NCBI GenBank assembly: GCA_003116975.1
Contig: BGKB01000060.1
Coordinates: 219,208 to 283,207 of the forward strand
Origin: Aurantiochytrium sp. KH105
Lineage: Eukaryota > Sar > Bigyra > Thraustochytrida > Thraustochytriidae
DNA: 64,000 nucleotides
Reading direction: 5' to 3'
The notes below the pieces were generated by a model, which saw only the letters and a program-made list of their open reading frames with translations, was not told the origin of the DNA and did not search any database. Numbering within the stretch: the stretch's first letter is position 1; every line of letters starts with the position of its first letter. Below are positions 2,368-11,664 of this stretch, one piece after another. A program made the position numbers and the translations under genes.

Positions 2368-2847
2368 GGTGGCCCCAACGAATGAATTGGGACGCGTCTC
2401 GACGCGACCGGTGCTACGACCAACCTTGCACGTCCGCGTGCGCGCGGGCGGAGAGGCGAGGTGAAGGAGGCAGAAGCAGCCAGCGGGGGGCGCCCGCCGT
2501 GCCTTGCCTCGCCCAAGCACGTCGCGCGCGAGTTCTGTGCGATTCTGGGTCTGGTTCCCCATGTTCGAGGGGCCTCCTTTGATCAGCCAGCAGGAAGAAG
2601 CTCGGCCAACTTCATAAAAGTCTCTGGAAAAGGCAATGAGAAAACGTGCACTGCACCACATCGCAACGATAGCGGAGGTGATTGCGAGCAAGAGGGGGTA
2701 AAGGCCCTCAAGGGAAATTACCAGATAAGTTCACGCGTGTACAGTCAATTTTCGTTCGTTGTAAGAAAAGAGAACTCTGAATGAATAAAGATTGACGAGA
2801 CATTGCTTCCGCAGCCGATCAATCGCGAGCTAGCTAGATGGGCAGGA
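2368..2847. other. Intergenic: 5' region of the Aurora gene and 3' region of the UBAC2-like gene
   Basis: No separate gene is seen. The Aurora reading frame stays open through the part nearest 2367, which may be 5' leader or an N-terminal extension starting at MGNQTQ (2562). Confidence 0.5.
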
Positions 2848-4120
2848 TTACATGAGCAAAGATTCGGTAGCGCGAGCCACATTGTTGTTACATCGGCGAA
2901 GAGCTTCCACGGCACTATCTCGGTCGAAGCCCATCTCCGTAAGTCGTGCAACGTCTTCTTCAGAGGGAGGGGCCACGGTCGCCTGGGGCTGAGGTGGCGC
3001 GGGCCCCCCAAAGCCGCCTCCGAAGCCGCCGCCTCCGAAGCCGCCGCCTCCAGCACCACCAAGAAATCCTGGTCCTGGAAGCAACTGGTCCATTTGATAT
3101 CCCTGGGCGTTTGTGCCGCGGTGCTGCTGCTGTTGCTGCTGCTGCATCTCCTGCCGCAACGCCTACGAAAATAACGAAGAGACCAAAAACCACGAGGTGA
3201 GCAGCCAGGCGGCCGAGAATGAGTCAGTCTTTGCATGCGAAAGCAAGCGCGCCAGTCAAAACATTTGCAAAGGGCAAAACTTACAGCAATCGTCGCGGGA
3301 TCCATGCCCATTCTTGCGTACGTCTCTTCTTCCCTGCGCGCGCGCGCTGCTGCAATCTCAGCGGGGCTGCGACTGGCAAAAAGAGGCGCGAGATAATCTT
3401 TACTGAATCGCACGAGGGGGTCAGGCCACGAGAATTTGTTAAAGGGCAGCTTGTCGCTGAGACACAGAAGTCCGCCAATCATGCCACAGCAGGCTGCAAT
3501 CGCAGACTGGTTGCCCTGCGCCAAGAGGAGTTGACTACCCCATAAATACATGAAGGACTTTTCCGAGAACTCGGCCCCGAGAAGGCGGTACTTTTGCAGC
3601 TTGGGTACGTAGACAAAGTAGTGAACAAAGAGAGCAAAGATGTAACTGTACGGCCCAATTGCAACCTGGCTCAGCTCGCGGTCATCAAAGCCCGGATTCA
3701 TGATGAGGACAGCCATTTGAAGCGTGATGGAGAGCAACGTGGACATGGTCGTGAACGAGAGGAAGCGCGCGGTGCCCATTCTGCGCTCGAACATTCTAAA
3801 CTGGTAAATGAGCCCCATACCCAGGACCAGCTCGCCAATGCCTCCAAAGACGAATTGTCCTGCCAAGACACGATGCAGTTGGACGCCGGAAAAGGCAGTC
3901 ACATCGTATCCAGTCCATGGGGCTGGGAGAGTGTACATGTTGGCAATGGATCCAAGTCCCACGGCGAAGAAGATTGCTTTGCTGGCCGGCGCCTGGTCTA
4001 CGCGTCGAAGAAAGTAAAAGCAATAAAGAAGGTCAGTTAACAGTTCGACAAGGGGGTGCGAGGCGACGTGGACGACGGAGACAAGCACTTACAAAAGTCA
4101 AACCATCCGGAAGACGCCAT
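2848..4120 (-). CDS. UBAC2-like rhomboid pseudoprotease with C-terminal UBA domain (3 exons)
   Basis: Three exons give 351 aa: 4093-4120, 3285-3997 and 2848-3162. Introns 3998-4092 and 3163-3284 both start GTAAGT and end TAG, and the joins restore MASSGWFDFYQAPASKA and DPATIAALRQEMQ in frame. The total of 1056 nt divides by three. The middle exon encodes a multi-pass membrane region with rhomboid/derlin-like features (GMGLIYQFRMFERRMG, as in UBAC2). The last exon encodes poly-Gln and Gly-rich linkers and then a UBA domain (EEDVARLTEMGFDRDSAVEALRR). Animal UBAC2 is an ER membrane protein linked to ERAD and lipid-droplet factor retention, so an ER ubiquitin-related role is inferred. No rhomboid GxSG/His dyad is visible, as expected for a pseudoprotease. 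Confidence 0.85.
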
Positions 4121-5364: not shown

Positions 5365-8307
5365 ATGGAGAACGCCAACAGCACCAGCGAGATTGCGAGC
5401 AACGGGAGCAGCATGGGGGGAAACAGCACCGCCGGCGGTGCCGCTGGCGGTAGCGGCAGCGGCGGCGGCGATGGCTCGGCATCTCCCCGCAATCAGCCCC
5501 TGCAAACAAACCCTCCCAAACCCGCGCGCGTCGTGGCAGATTCATTTTCCAGTCCAATGACGCAGAAACGCAAAATGATCGTGGCGCCGTCAAGGCTTGA
5601 TCTTGACGGCAAACGATCGCGATGGGAGGACGCAGCGCGCAAGTCGCGAAAGCGAGCAGTAAGCCTCGATGACCTCTTGACGGAGATCAAGATGGAAATC
5701 ATCTCTTATCTTGCCTTTGGAAGCCCTGGCTCGATCGAAGGCATCTGGGCCGCCTCCGTGACATGGAACCGTCTGTGCACAAGCGCGCGGTTCTGGAAAC
5801 AGTTTCCCTCCTTTGACTCGTCGGGCGTGATCCGGACAGCGTCGTTCCAGTACCTTGGGCTGAAGAACAAAGGCACGGAAGGCAACTGCTACAAGGTGAT
5901 GCACCGACGCTCGGGCCGTCTCTTTGCCATGAAACGCGCGCGCGTGTATCCCACGGGCGAGGGCGTCCCATACTATATGCTACGCGAGTTGGCGTTTTTG
6001 CAAGGATTACGACATCCGCACATTGCCACCGTCGAACGAATTTCGCTGGTGGACAACAAGCTGCACCTTTTCTTCAGCTACATGGAAAAGTCGCTCTTTG
6101 ATCTCATTAACCCTAACAATGACGCCGACGGCGGCAAGCCCTTGCCGCCGACGCTAATTCGGCGTTTCCTGTACCAAATATTGCAAGGCGTCGCGTTTTG
6201 CCACCAGCGCGGCGTCTTGCACCGCAACCTGAAACCCAAACATCTATTGGTGGACATTCCAGGCATCTCGAATTCGTCGCGCCGCTGTACTACGGTGCGG
6301 GAGGAGCGGGAGTCCATTTCCTACATTTTGGGTCTCACCGATAAGCGACCACCCCCCGTTGCGGAGATGGATACCGCGGGGGAGGAGATTGCAGGCCCGG
6401 AGAATGCCATGGATGACCATGTGTACGCTGAGCTTCTCACAGCCGCCGAAAGCGGGAGCATCCGCATTTCTGATTTTGCCCTGGTCCGCTCCACCTCGAT
6501 TCCGCTTCGCAATTATACTACAGAGGTCGTCACACTCTGGTATCGGTCTCCAGAAGTTCTCATGGGTGGCCGATACTTTGCTGCGGTGGATGTGTGGTCG
6601 GTGGGCTGCGTATTTGCAGAGATGATCCTTGGCAAGCCCTTATTTCCCGGTATTTGCGAGATCGATCAGCTTTTCCAGATCTTTCTCAAGCTCGGAACGC
6701 CGAACGAGTCGACCTGGGCAGGTTTTTCTGAACTGCCAAACTTTCAACCCGAGTTCCCACGCTGGCCGCGACGCTCTCTTAAGGTGCACGTACCCAATTT
6801 GGATGAGGACGGCGTCGATCTCATGACGCGAATGCTCGACGTGAACCCAAACCGCCGCATCACGGCCGAGGAAGCGCTGCAGCACCCCTACTTTGATCCG
6901 ATCCGGGCGCAGCCCAAGGCTCCAGATGTTGATGCTGCGCCGTCCACAGACCCCACGCCACGTGTCGGCCCCGGTCGCCCCGCGGAGGATGATGAATTCG
7001 GTCGCGTTGTCTCTGTGCCTGGCCAGGTGGACTTGAACTCATTAAGCTGGCATGACGCGGACACTGAGGAATTCAAGACAACGTGCTGGAAATACGCAGG
7101 CAAGATCGATCGACTCGCGCGCGAAGATCGCGGCGGTGCGCCGCGGCAAGGTCTCGACGACATGCTGTATCTAATTCGCTACTACCACTATCTCAAGGCG
7201 CTGGAAGCGGAAATGTTCCCCCTTGCAGATTACCTCGTCGAACCAGAAATGATGCCGGCCGCCGCAGAGGCTGGCGCCGGGCGAGGGGCAGTGGCAGCTG
7301 CCGGGGCCACTGGCGCAGTGGCTCCAGGCCAGGGACCGCAGCCTCGCGGAGGGCAGCAAGAAGAGCTCACTGGGCTTGCTCAGCTGCCTCCGGCCCAGAC
7401 GCAGCAAGGTCAGATGCAGGAACAGTTGGAACAGCTCCCGCCTGATCAGCGTCCACAGGGGGAGGAATTGGAGGAGGGCGCCGAGCAAGGCATGGGGGCG
7501 CTGGCGCGTACAATCGAAGAGCAGAACGCCACGAACATGCAAGCCAATCTGCAACCGCTGCATCGGTCGATGCTTGTAGACTGGCTTGTGGAGGTGATTG
7601 ACGTTTTTGACATGTCGGTGCGAAGTGTGTTCATGGCGGTCAATTACACGGATCGTTATCTTGCGAAGCAATTTGTACAGCGGAACCGCTTCCAGCTTCT
7701 TGGAGCCACCTGCCTGCATATTGCCTCCAAGTGCGAGGATGTTTCCTACATTGGTGTGGAAGACCTCGTTGTGTGCGCAGACAAAGTGTATGGCCCCGAG
7801 GACGTCTTGCGTCTTGAGGAGAAGGTCCTGAACACGCTCGACTTTCATATTTCCGTACCGACGGTGATCGACTTCTTGAACGTTTTTATTGTGCGGCTCA
7901 TGTACAGTTCCGGCGAAGACCAGAGCTGCACCGTGCTGGCCTCGGGAATTAGCGCGCTCCGGGAGATGCACGTGAGCAAGGAAGCCAAGGCCCTGGCTCA
8001 GTATCTTGCCGAGCTTTCGCTGCAGGAACACTTTTTCATTGCCCAAATGCCTTCATGCGTGGCGGCTGCGGCGCTCGGGTTTGCCCTTTTTCTCAAGGGT
8101 TTGCCCATTTATCCTGAGCGCTTTGAGGCTGTCACGGGCTATTCTCTCAAGGCGCTTCGTCCCTGCGTGGAGCGCCTCAGCAACGCCTTGCAAGATGCGC
8201 CCCTGCGTCCTAATTTGCACGTGATTTTGCGTCGTTACCAGCGCCCGCAGAACTTTTCCGTCGCGGTCACCTCGCTGACGCGGCCTCTGTACACCATGTT
8301 CGAGTGA
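5365..8307 (+). CDS. F-box / CDK-like (pseudo)kinase / cyclin fusion protein
   Basis: 980 aa from the ATG at 5365, preceded by an AAAG-rich leader. A low-complexity Gly/Ser N-terminus is followed by an F-box-like motif at about 99-150 (LLTEIKMEIISYL through ARFWKQF). A CDK-family kinase domain covers about 162-510. It has an AMKR lysine, a PSTAIRE-helix counterpart EGVPYYMLRELAFL, the T-loop YTTEVVTLWYRSPE and CDK signatures such as DVWSVGCVFAEM. A Gln/Ala/Gly-rich linker leads to an A/B-type cyclin fold from about 725 to the end (SMLVDWLVEVIDVFDM, LLGATCLHIASKCED). The catalytic loop reads HRNLKPKH (286-293) instead of HRDLKPQN, and DFG is DFA (370-372), so activity is probably lost or reduced. 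About 70 extra residues lie between these motifs. F-box plus cyclin recalls cyclin F, but with a CDK module in the same chain. An SCF adaptor or cell-cycle regulator role is inferred. Confidence 0.85.
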   Translation: MENANSTSEIASNGSSMGGNSTAGGAAGGSGSGGGDGSASPRNQPLQTNPPKPARVVADSFSSPMTQKRKMIVAPSRLDLDGKRSRWEDAARKSRKRAVSLDDLLTEIKMEIISYLAFGSPGSIEGIWAASVTWNRLCTSARFWKQFPSFDSSGVIRTASFQYLGLKNKGTEGNCYKVMHRRSGRLFAMKRARVYPTGEGVPYYMLRELAFLQGLRHPHIATVERISLVDNKLHLFFSYMEKSLFDLINPNNDADGGKPLPPTLIRRFLYQILQGVAFCHQRGVLHRNLKPKHLLVDIPGISNSSRRCTTVREERESISYILGLTDKRPPPVAEMDTAGEEIAGPENAMDDHVYAELLTAAESGSIRISDFALVRSTSIPLRNYTTEVVTLWYRSPEVLMGGRYFAAVDVWSVGCVFAEMILGKPLFPGICEIDQLFQIFLKLGTPNESTWAGFSELPNFQPEFPRWPRRSLKVHVPNLDEDGVDLMTRMLDVNPNRRITAEEALQHPYFDPIRAQPKAPDVDAAPSTDPTPRVGPGRPAEDDEFGRVVSVPGQVDLNSLSWHDADTEEFKTTCWKYAGKIDRLAREDRGGAPRQGLDDMLYLIRYYHYLKALEAEMFPLADYLVEPEMMPAAAEAGAGRGAVAAAGATGAVAPGQGPQPRGGQQEELTGLAQLPPAQTQQGQMQEQLEQLPPDQRPQGEELEEGAEQGMGALARTIEEQNATNMQANLQPLHRSMLVDWLVEVIDVFDMSVRSVFMAVNYTDRYLAKQFVQRNRFQLLGATCLHIASKCEDVSYIGVEDLVVCADKVYGPEDVLRLEEKVLNTLDFHISVPTVIDFLNVFIVRLMYSSGEDQSCTVLASGISALREMHVSKEAKALAQYLAELSLQEHFFIAQMPSCVAAAALGFALFLKGLPIYPERFEAVTGYSLKALRPCVERLSNALQDAPLRPNLHVILRRYQRPQNFSVAVTSLTRPLYTMFE

Positions 8308-8594: not shown

Positions 8595-9662
8595 ATGGTG
8601 GACGCCGACTTTGATGCGCTCGTCCGCGACCTGCGCGCGCATGCGCAACCAGCGGCCCTAGGGCTCACTGTGCGCGACCTCGCGCCCGGCCGTAGACCAC
8701 GACCCTCGCGAAAACCTGCCGTGGAGGACGATGCGCAGGCTTTGCAAGGGACCAAGAACGACGAGGAGTTCGACTCTGGCGACGAGCATCATAACGACGT
8801 CCACTTTGGGGACGTCGCGCTGTACGTGTCAGGTGTTGAAGGCCACCCCGTTGGCACAGAAGATGGAGCCAGCGACACGGAAAGCAGGTTCTTCTTTGGA
8901 AAAGAGCGACGGGCGGCGCAACGCAAGCAGGTTAAGGACCACCACGCCAAGGCCCAGAACGCTCGCTCTGCTGACCAATTGAGCAGCTTGCGGCGGAAGA
9001 AGATGCAGAAAGAGCAGCCGCCTGCAGACGAGACCAAGCCGCCGCCACGAAAACGCGGTCGACGTAAAAAGGTACTTCCTCGCACAGAGATTGCAACCGA
9101 CGTTAGCGTCAGTCTAGACGCCGATGCCGCTGCACGCGCGCAAAAAGCTCTTGCGCAGCTTGCATCGCATAAAAGTGAAAAGGCATCGAGGAAAATCGAG
9201 CGCATGCAACGCAAGGCGCGCAAGAAGCTCAAGACTCTGGCGCGTCAAAGCGGAGTCAAGCCTCCTTCCTCGTCCTCCTCGTTGTTCTCCAAGTCGTCAT
9301 TCTCGATGGCCCAGGGAAAGACCGAGTCTTCCCAAAAAGTCGAGTCCCCGCGCACAGACGCGATCGCATTGATTCCATCCATTGCGGGTGCGCGCGCCCC
9401 GAGCGCGTCAATGTCAGGAATGTCAGCATTCCGCGCGCTTCGCCAGCAAGATCTCTTTGCATATTCCGTGCCGCTCGACTCCGACCAGGCCAAGCTAGCT
9501 TCGTCACAAAGTATCGGACACGAACAAGCTTCAAATCACGTCACCGCTGACGCCAGTGTCGACGATGATTTTGGTGATCTTTCTCTCTTTCAAGACGTCT
9601 CGCAGGCGCCTGGACGCCAGCGCCGACACTACCTTTTGGCCGATCGTCGCAACGGCGGATAA
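8595..9662 (+). CDS. Basic, disordered, probably nuclear protein of unknown function
   Basis: 355 aa from the ATG at 8595 to TAA at 9660-9662. No family was recognised. The N-terminus (MVDADFDALVRDLRAH) is helical-looking, followed by an acidic patch and then a block RFFFGKERRAAQRKQVKDHH that looks the most conserved. A strongly basic segment PPPRKRGRRKKVLP is a likely nuclear localisation signal, and a Lys/Arg-rich helix (SEKASRKIERMQRKARKKLK) follows. The C-terminal half is Ser-rich and probably disordered. Composition suggests an RNA- or chromatin-associated protein (inference only). Its last about 130 bases overlap, on the other strand, a weaker candidate coding segment. Confidence 0.65.
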   Translation: MVDADFDALVRDLRAHAQPAALGLTVRDLAPGRRPRPSRKPAVEDDAQALQGTKNDEEFDSGDEHHNDVHFGDVALYVSGVEGHPVGTEDGASDTESRFFFGKERRAAQRKQVKDHHAKAQNARSADQLSSLRRKKMQKEQPPADETKPPPRKRGRRKKVLPRTEIATDVSVSLDADAAARAQKALAQLASHKSEKASRKIERMQRKARKKLKTLARQSGVKPPSSSSSLFSKSSFSMAQGKTESSQKVESPRTDAIALIPSIAGARAPSASMSGMSAFRALRQQDLFAYSVPLDSDQAKLASSQSIGHEQASNHVTADASVDDDFGDLSLFQDVSQAPGRQRRHYLLADRRNGG

Positions 9663-10437: not shown

Positions 10438-11664
10438 ATGTCGGAGACCGGGTCGAGTCCGAGCGAAATGCTCGCGCAGTACAAGGAGATGGTGCGCACG
10501 CATCCAGAGCAGGTGAAGCGCATGGAGGAAATGGGTCGTCTGGTGACAATGCTCGTGCCAACGACAAGGCTTGGCAAGTACTCTGAAGTCTTTCAGGAGG
10601 CCACATACTCGGTGCTGAGCCTAGTAAGCCTGTACCATAGCCGCATTATCCACCAGGTGCGGCTTTCGGAACAGAATACGCCGCTGGCATGGCTCGTTAA
10701 ACTCGTCTTGACACTCTTTGGTCAGACGGAGGTGGTGATCGAAATGCTTACGCGCATCATCCGCGGCGATGATGCCCGTATGCGCATTGTCATCTTTATC
10801 GAGTGGTTCAAGGCCGTCTGCAGACTCGCGCTCTTTTCACAGTCTGGACGACGCAGCATCATTGTTGCTGGAGGCCAGCTTCAGCCCCTGCCCCCTGGTG
10901 GCGAAGCCGTCGCTGCGAACGGCTCGGCAAGCTCCGAGGCTACCGTGGCCGATGCACAGAGTAGCCCTGCTTCGCCGGGGGAGGTCGTTGAGCAGGGCAC
11001 GACGGAGGCCACACTCAAGAACAAACCGCAGTGGGTTGGTCGACGCTCTGGCAAGGCCGTTCCCCTGTCGGCCTCTTTGGCTTCGCATGACAACGTGAAT
11101 GACGCGCCCCTTGTGGCGAACGCCACAGCTGCTGCAGGGGCCAAGACTCTTGCCTTGTCTGAAGCCGGTCCTGAAGATCAAGCGCTGCGCACGGCCGGCG
11201 AGGTGCTTCACATCATGCGCCCAGTCATTTATGTTATGCAAATGCGACACAAGAGCGCTCAGAAATCGTGGACGCCTTGGGTTGTCTCGCTTCTGTTGGA
11301 GCTTTTGTCGCTGCGTTGCAGCTCCGTTGCGACGCCCGGCCCCGTCGTCAAGCAAACCGAGTCCGCAAACTCCGCCGAGGTTATGACGCTCGCGCTGCAA
11401 AAACTCGTTTCCGGGTCGTCGGGTTCAAGCAAGCTGCCTCCTGCAGCAGCCAAGGTGATCGACGACGAACTGCGTCGCCGCAGGACGTTGTTCTCGTTTT
11501 ATTTTATGCGTTCTCCTGTGTTTGACCTTGTCACGCTTCCGGCCGTGCGTCGCTTTGCCAAGAGTCTCAGCCATTTGCCTGGACTTGGAAACAACATCGA
11601 GAAGATGCTCGTAGAGATGGTCATGTACTACCACCGCAACCATTTCCACATTGCTGGAAGCTAA
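10438..11664 (+). CDS. PEX16: Peroxisomal membrane protein PEX16
   Basis: 408 aa from the ATG at 10438. It matches the PEX16 pattern: an N-terminal YKEMVRTHPEQVKRMEEM, then GRLVTMLVPTTRLGKYSEVFQEATYS; a central FIEWFKAVCRLALF; a long low-complexity loop; RPVIYVMQMRHKSAQKSWTPW, allowing for small differences; and a C-terminal LFSFYFMRSPVFDLVTLP region ending YYHRNHFHIAGS. PEX16 is a peroxisomal/ER membrane protein that helps recruit PEX3 and membrane proteins to peroxisomes. Two hydrophobic stretches (around VSLLLELLSL and in the C-terminal block) fit membrane insertion. It is convergent with phosphofructokinase downstream. Confidence 0.88.
   Translation: MSETGSSPSEMLAQYKEMVRTHPEQVKRMEEMGRLVTMLVPTTRLGKYSEVFQEATYSVLSLVSLYHSRIIHQVRLSEQNTPLAWLVKLVLTLFGQTEVVIEMLTRIIRGDDARMRIVIFIEWFKAVCRLALFSQSGRRSIIVAGGQLQPLPPGGEAVAANGSASSEATVADAQSSPASPGEVVEQGTTEATLKNKPQWVGRRSGKAVPLSASLASHDNVNDAPLVANATAAAGAKTLALSEAGPEDQALRTAGEVLHIMRPVIYVMQMRHKSAQKSWTPWVVSLLLELLSLRCSSVATPGPVVKQTESANSAEVMTLALQKLVSGSSGSSKLPPAAAKVIDDELRRRRTLFSFYFMRSPVFDLVTLPAVRRFAKSLSHLPGLGNNIEKMLVEMVMYYHRNHFHIAGS

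Follow-up and report, generated by a model that had tools for sequence, protein, structure and literature searches.

A CDK-cyclin fusion gene with a degenerate kinase active site, predicted to be catalytically inactive, in Aurantiochytrium sp. KH105

RESULTS

One open frame with two alleles encodes a CDK-cyclin fusion

The region analyzed here, termed the window, is a stretch of 64,000 nucleotides from Aurantiochytrium sp. KH105 (contig BGKB01000060.1, positions 219,208 to 283,207). On its plus strand lies a gene that encodes a kinase domain and, C-terminal to it, a cyclin module (Table 1). Both parts were matched by Pfam in the one frame, and a second allele agrees, as expected from a preliminary description of this DNA that had placed a CDK and a cyclin in one polypeptide. 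The same description had reported a 980-aa frame with no stop or splice signal, and this also held: translation of 5365-8307 (+) gave no internal stops across 980 aa, and no GTRAG motif, a narrow test for splice donors, was found on the plus strand in 6900-7540.

Table 1. Features of the fusion gene and its product; positions are those of the window
Feature	Residues (aa)	Position	Strand	Basis or remark
Whole coding frame (P0001)	980 + stop	5365..8307	+	Single open frame; allele of equal length
Bipartite NLS-like stretch (KRSRWEDAARKSRKR)	83-97	5611..5655	+	Pattern match only
F-box-like segment, candidate	104-147	5674..5805	+	Custom profile score of 7.1 bits, match fragmented
CDK-like kinase domain, first part; K190 and E208 retained, degraded glycine loop, E172 at the Y15 position	161-300	5845..6264	+	
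Catalytic loop HRNLKPKH; catalytic Asp replaced by N288, metal-binding Asn by H293	286-293	6220..6243	+	Alignment to CDK2 and own CDKs; same in allele
Kinase insert of ~60 aa between catalytic loop and DFA	301-361	6265..6447	+	Gap relative to CDK2 and four own kinases
Kinase domain, second part; DFA 370-372, T-loop T385 and WYRSPE kept	362-515	6448..6909	+	
Linker; low-complexity Ala/Gly/Gln/Pro at ~aa 635-713	516-716	6910..7512	+	GC1 0.91 in low-complexity part
Cyclin_N box	717-829	7513..7851	+	Pfam 5.4e-31; closest solved chain cyclin A2
Cyclin_C	832-968	7858..8268	+	Pfam 1e-15

Several neighboring genes could be recognized. A rhomboid-family frame (PF01694) occupies window 2748-4088 (-), and a further frame downstream of it, at 2848-3159 (-), carries what we take to be a UBA-like stretch; the two frames probably belong to a single UBAC2-like gene with an intron between them, and for that reason introns may occur near the fusion gene. 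The next sizeable plus-strand frame downstream of the fusion gene, at 8595-9659, encodes 355 aa rich in Lys and Arg and had no Pfam match at E<=0.1. A gene for the peroxin Pex16 lies at 10438-11661 (+) (PF08610, 3.1e-53).

The genome assembly comprises 76.0 Mb in 367 contigs, and its cyclin matches are mostly paired with equal or near-equal scores, which is the pattern expected of two assembled haplotypes. The allelic copy of the fusion gene, on contig G000:C1 (L025 1209-4151), also encodes 980 aa with no net indel, and an 8-kb stretch around it is collinear with the window, with 95% identity in DNA and 56 gap openings in the alignment. Between the two alleles, we counted 50 synonymous and 16 nonsynonymous changes, a dN/dS of 0.096. 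Regional values, which rest on small counts per region, were 0.119 for aa 1-90, 0 for aa 95-152 (the F-box-like region, with zero amino-acid changes), 0.158 for aa 516-605 of the linker, 0.554 for the low-complexity aa 635-713, and 0.046 for the cyclin core; aa 606-634 had two nonsynonymous and no synonymous changes and so gave no ratio. All three pieces of the kinase region lay at or below 0.08 (0 for aa 153-300, then 0.043 and 0.08 for the two later pieces), which indicates that the kinase, although it lacks active-site residues as described below, is not decaying. The fusion is one constrained coding gene, genuine and unusual.

An assembly error joining two genes, which the preliminary description had named as a way in which its reading could fail, or a comparable gene-model error, would be in keeping with the linker of ~200 aa, in which no Pfam family was found (aa 516-732, E<=10). 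Against it, the two alleles share the same frame without net indel, and in Phytophthora, RT-PCR has confirmed genes with this layout (PMC3019232). Because the second allele has equal length and few amino-acid changes, we consider such a join very unlikely and rejected it as an account of the locus.

The kinase domain has lost catalytic residues

Pfam matched Pkinase in two stretches (1.3e-49), and the closest solved chains to this part were CDK2, CDK3, and CDK1, which upholds the earlier assignment to the CDK family. The matches from NCBIfam all stayed far below the cut-off: weak ones to kinases and a single one to a cyclin (ccl1). A kinase tree of eight sequences joined the fusion to CDK2 with a support of 0.011, a value that does not settle its place.

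We then compared individual residues with those of CDK2. In CDK2 numbering, the changes in the fusion are D127N (N288), N132H (H293), G147A (A372), G11N, E12K, Y15E, and V18C, and the PSTAIRE helix reads PYYMLRE. Retained are G13, T14, G16, K33, R50, E51, F80, H125, R126, K129, D145, F146, R150, Y159, T160, E162, W167, and R169. When scored on four residues of active kinases (the VAIK Lys, the HRD Asp, the catalytic-loop Asn, and the DFG Asp), the fusion keeps two, K190 and D370. HRD was present in all 10 other kinase loci examined (L011-L020), a set that consists largely of allele pairs, mixes CDKs with non-CDKs, and includes two partial frames (L014 and L015); both fusion alleles have HRN. 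Since the catalytic base and one metal ligand are lost, we predict from the sequence that the kinase part is catalytically inactive. Some kinases without canonical catalytic residues do retain weak activity.

The loss of the catalytic Asp is a feature absent from the preliminary description, which had envisaged a self-contained cyclin-kinase unit; as an enzyme, such a unit finds no support, given the Asn, His, and Ala at positions 127, 132, and 147 (CDK2 numbering). An active, self-sufficient cyclin-kinase would draw on the retained K33, E51, D145, and T-loop threonine, and it has a counterpart in the engineered Cdc13-L-Cdc2 fusion, which drives the fission yeast cell cycle (PMC4319789) and thereby shows that tethering is workable. 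Like the gene described here, that construct holds a cyclin and a CDK in one chain; unlike it, the construct is artificial, is named with its cyclin first, and runs a cell cycle (PMC4319789). With both the catalytic Asp and the catalytic-loop Asn replaced, the glycine loop broken, and the catalytic loop identical in the two alleles, we regard an active enzyme as quite improbable.

The cyclin part is closest to cyclin A

The cyclin part had been described as A/B-type. The cyclin fold stands (Table 1), and within that pairing A2 is nearer than B1: among solved cyclins, the fusion scored 104 bits with A2, 76 with cyclin F, 64 with B1, 64 with D1, and 56 with E1. The canonical cyclin B of the same genome, used as a control, scored 192 bits with B1, 177 at best with A2, 97 with F, and 69 with E1. 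Cyclin F thus outranks B1 for the fusion and is the third type, after B1 and A2, for the canonical cyclin B. Because the latter lists cyclin F too, the cyclin F match is no special sign in itself, and with A2 scoring higher, we did not adopt kinship with cyclin F. The resemblance to cyclin F (FBXO1) amounts to a possible F-box N-terminal to a cyclin and to F being the second-best solved type; in the fusion, unlike in cyclin F, a kinase domain lies between the F-box-like segment and the cyclin.

Reading the A2 alignment by eye, we found K266 and E295 (cyclin A numbering) kept; in cyclin A, these residues contact the CDK. The substrate-docking patch of cyclin A includes M210, I213, L214, W217, E220, L253, and Q254, and of these, L214, W217, E220, and Q254 are kept in the same by-eye alignment, with M210 changed to H, I213 to M, and L253 to F.

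The retained contact residues bear on another arrangement, in which the partner of the cyclin part would be another, active CDK recruited in trans, leaving the dead kinase of the fusion to regulate only stability or place. PSTAIRE-type CDKs with HRD are indeed encoded in the genome (L011-L013), and a cyclin domain of such fusions may regulate protein stability, as Judelson and Ah-Fong suggested (PMC3019232). With R50 and E51 of its PSTAIRE region retained, however, the tethered kinase would be a competitor in cis, and we hold recruitment in trans to be unlikely.

Cyclins occur at 29 or more places in the genome. We examined 19 of 29 places, including about 1.5 to 4 kb of flank, by tblastn (E<=1e-3) with two queries, the fusion kinase and one of the organism's own CDKs, and found no kinase next to a cyclin beyond the two fusion alleles; the other 10 were taken as allelic partners because their scores are the same or nearly the same as those of examined places. 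One canonical cyclin B gene (L001 1138-2310 (-), contig G000:C266) was seen at a single place: no other of the 29 cyclin matches had an equal score.

The N-terminal segment is a possible divergent F-box

An F-box-like motif, also part of the preliminary description, was not confirmed. Pfam, whose search filters drop most weak matches, found no F-box at E<=1 in the whole protein or at E<=10 in aa 91-167 or aa 91-154. Genome-wide, PF00646 gave 39 matches at E<=1 and PF12937 gave 58 at E<=10; the fusion gene was in neither set, although these scans score only first-look candidates. In the solved-structure search at E<=10, the segment matched a single PDB chain, that of the F-box protein KDM2B, with E 3.8 over 20 residues. 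This search has little power to recognize F-boxes: of two true F-boxes from the same genome, one brought up only a non-F-box chain, and the other brought up F-box chains with E values of 0.45 to 2.

Custom profiles gave weak and fragmented matches. With a profile of 12 of the organism's own F-boxes, aa 89-165 scored 6.0 bits, and 7 of 2000 shuffles scored at least as high (the best at 14.8 bits), as did 1 of 425 background tiles; the full protein scored 0.6 bits. A second profile, from 10 F-box stretches, gave 7.1 bits for aa 83-167; of 5000 shuffles, 9 scored this high (the best at 11.3 bits), and of 541 background tiles, none did. The full protein scored 1.7 bits, and the match was split into pieces rather than forming one alignment. 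As the segment had been preselected in the preliminary description, these shuffle counts are uncorrected. Held-out F-boxes of the same genome scored 10.2-26.5 bits with the second profile, placing the segment below all five, though they score high by construction, having been found by Pfam. When the fusion protein was tiled, the best scores with both profiles lay over the F-box-like segment. A single-sequence structure model of low confidence (pLDDT 50.8) contained five helices, three of which span aa 101-118, 124-139, and 141-146 and two of which lie elsewhere. It is possible that aa 104-147 are a divergent F-box.

If so, the protein could be tethered to SCF, as the preliminary description proposed, and serve as an adaptor, the N-terminal F-box binding Skp1 and the pseudo-CDK-cyclin body recognizing substrates, such that CDK- or cyclin-docking proteins would be ubiquitinated. 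The three modeled helices in F-box order, the preference of both profiles for the segment over shuffles, the KDM2B listing, the lack of amino-acid change between alleles in aa 95-152, and the presence of Skp1 genes in the genome all speak for such a role. Opposed to it are the absence of a Pfam match, a fragmented score under every held-out F-box, the background tile and the best shuffle of the first profile, the low full-protein scores, the short KDM2B match at high E, the preselection of the segment, and the fact that the term 'F-box' does not appear in the main text of PMC3019232, which describes similar fusions. On balance, we find an SCF adaptor doubtful. It is compatible, as an added function, with the scaffold or decoy role proposed below.

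DISCUSSION

Relation to known CDK-cyclin fusions

Whether CDK-cyclin fusions had been reported in stramenopiles was left open in the preliminary description; they have been known in oomycetes since 2010, when Judelson and Ah-Fong (PMC3019232) described four P. infestans CDKs with C-terminal cyclin domains. According to that report, Asp is replaced by Asn in subdomain VIb of all four, and relatives that share this replacement occur in P. ramorum, P. sojae, H. arabidopsidis, Paramecium, Tetrahymena, and Theileria; two diatoms and two other apicomplexans lacked such relatives (PMC3019232). The authors proposed that the fusions may be enzymatically inactive and that the common change suggests an important function (PMC3019232). 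In the literature searched, we found no later work on such CDK-cyclin fusions and no thraustochytrid case; the same searches, some of them aimed at other questions, showed no functional study of such a protein.

The Phytophthora fusions (PITG_21617 and three others) share with the gene described here a CDK kinase, a C-terminal Cyclin_N and Cyclin_C, and the subdomain VIb substitution in a single polypeptide (PMC3019232). They differ in number, four genes as opposed to one locus with two alleles, in the PSTAIRE helix, reported for PITG_21617 but reading PYYMLRE in our gene, and in that a possible F-box-like segment precedes the kinase here. By its sequence, the Aurantiochytrium gene looks like a further member of the little-studied HRN CDK-cyclin family known from oomycetes, a kinship that rests on layout and substitution as described in print, not on alignment. 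The layout and the dead active site were thus already described in 2010, and only the F-box lead could add to them. The member reported here contributes another lineage, a measure of constraint, and that lead.

A proposed non-catalytic scaffold or decoy

We favor as probable a pseudo-CDK-cyclin fusion: a CDK1/2-type kinase without its catalytic base, held in cis with an A-type-like cyclin, that would act as a non-catalytic scaffold or decoy. Most likely, the cyclin box would pack on the PSTAIRE-region helix of its own kinase, giving a permanently assembled, non-catalytic copy of a CDK-cyclin. This copy could titrate or position partners of the real complex, such as docking-motif substrates, CKS (for which genes are present in the genome), and inhibitors, and the ordinary HRD CDKs of the cell would do the phosphorylation. 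The nearest solved chains to the two halves are those of CDK1/CDK2-cyclin A, which, unlike the fusion, are separate chains with HRD intact. A structure model of the full-length protein had a mean pLDDT of 37.2, too low to use, and the change of PSTAIRE to PYYMLRE counts against this explanation. The gene also fits among the Asp-to-Asn fusions of oomycetes, ciliates, and Theileria, which have the same substitution (PMC3019232). A dead CDK-cyclin that is constrained between alleles, with that substitution also found in those lineages (PMC3019232), suggests a job of its own.

Were the F-box real, the fusion would pass CDK-cyclin docking partners to SCF. That the whole chain of F-box, pseudo-CDK, and cyclin A forms an SCF receptor acting through a dead CDK-cyclin, by which docking proteins are destroyed and not phosphorylated, we consider rather doubtful. 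If true, recognition of a kinase-like kind would be coupled directly to ubiquitination, in a family whose dead active site has been described in lineages from oomycetes to ciliates.

Wider scans and additional observations

No relatives of the fusion were found in prokaryote genome contigs or in two scans of viral contigs. A third viral scan gave 15 loci of weak kinase similarity, and the seven that were re-checked matched only in the kinase region. Separately, parts of a PfaA-like polyunsaturated fatty acid synthase were observed in the Aurantiochytrium genome; the match scored 930 bits against a cut-off of 1010, in keeping with a thraustochytrid origin, but the same search also gave weak, below-cut-off matches in 11 of 14 control genomes. 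These parts are spread over contigs G000:C72, C155, C61, and C290, those of C61 lying at the contig start.
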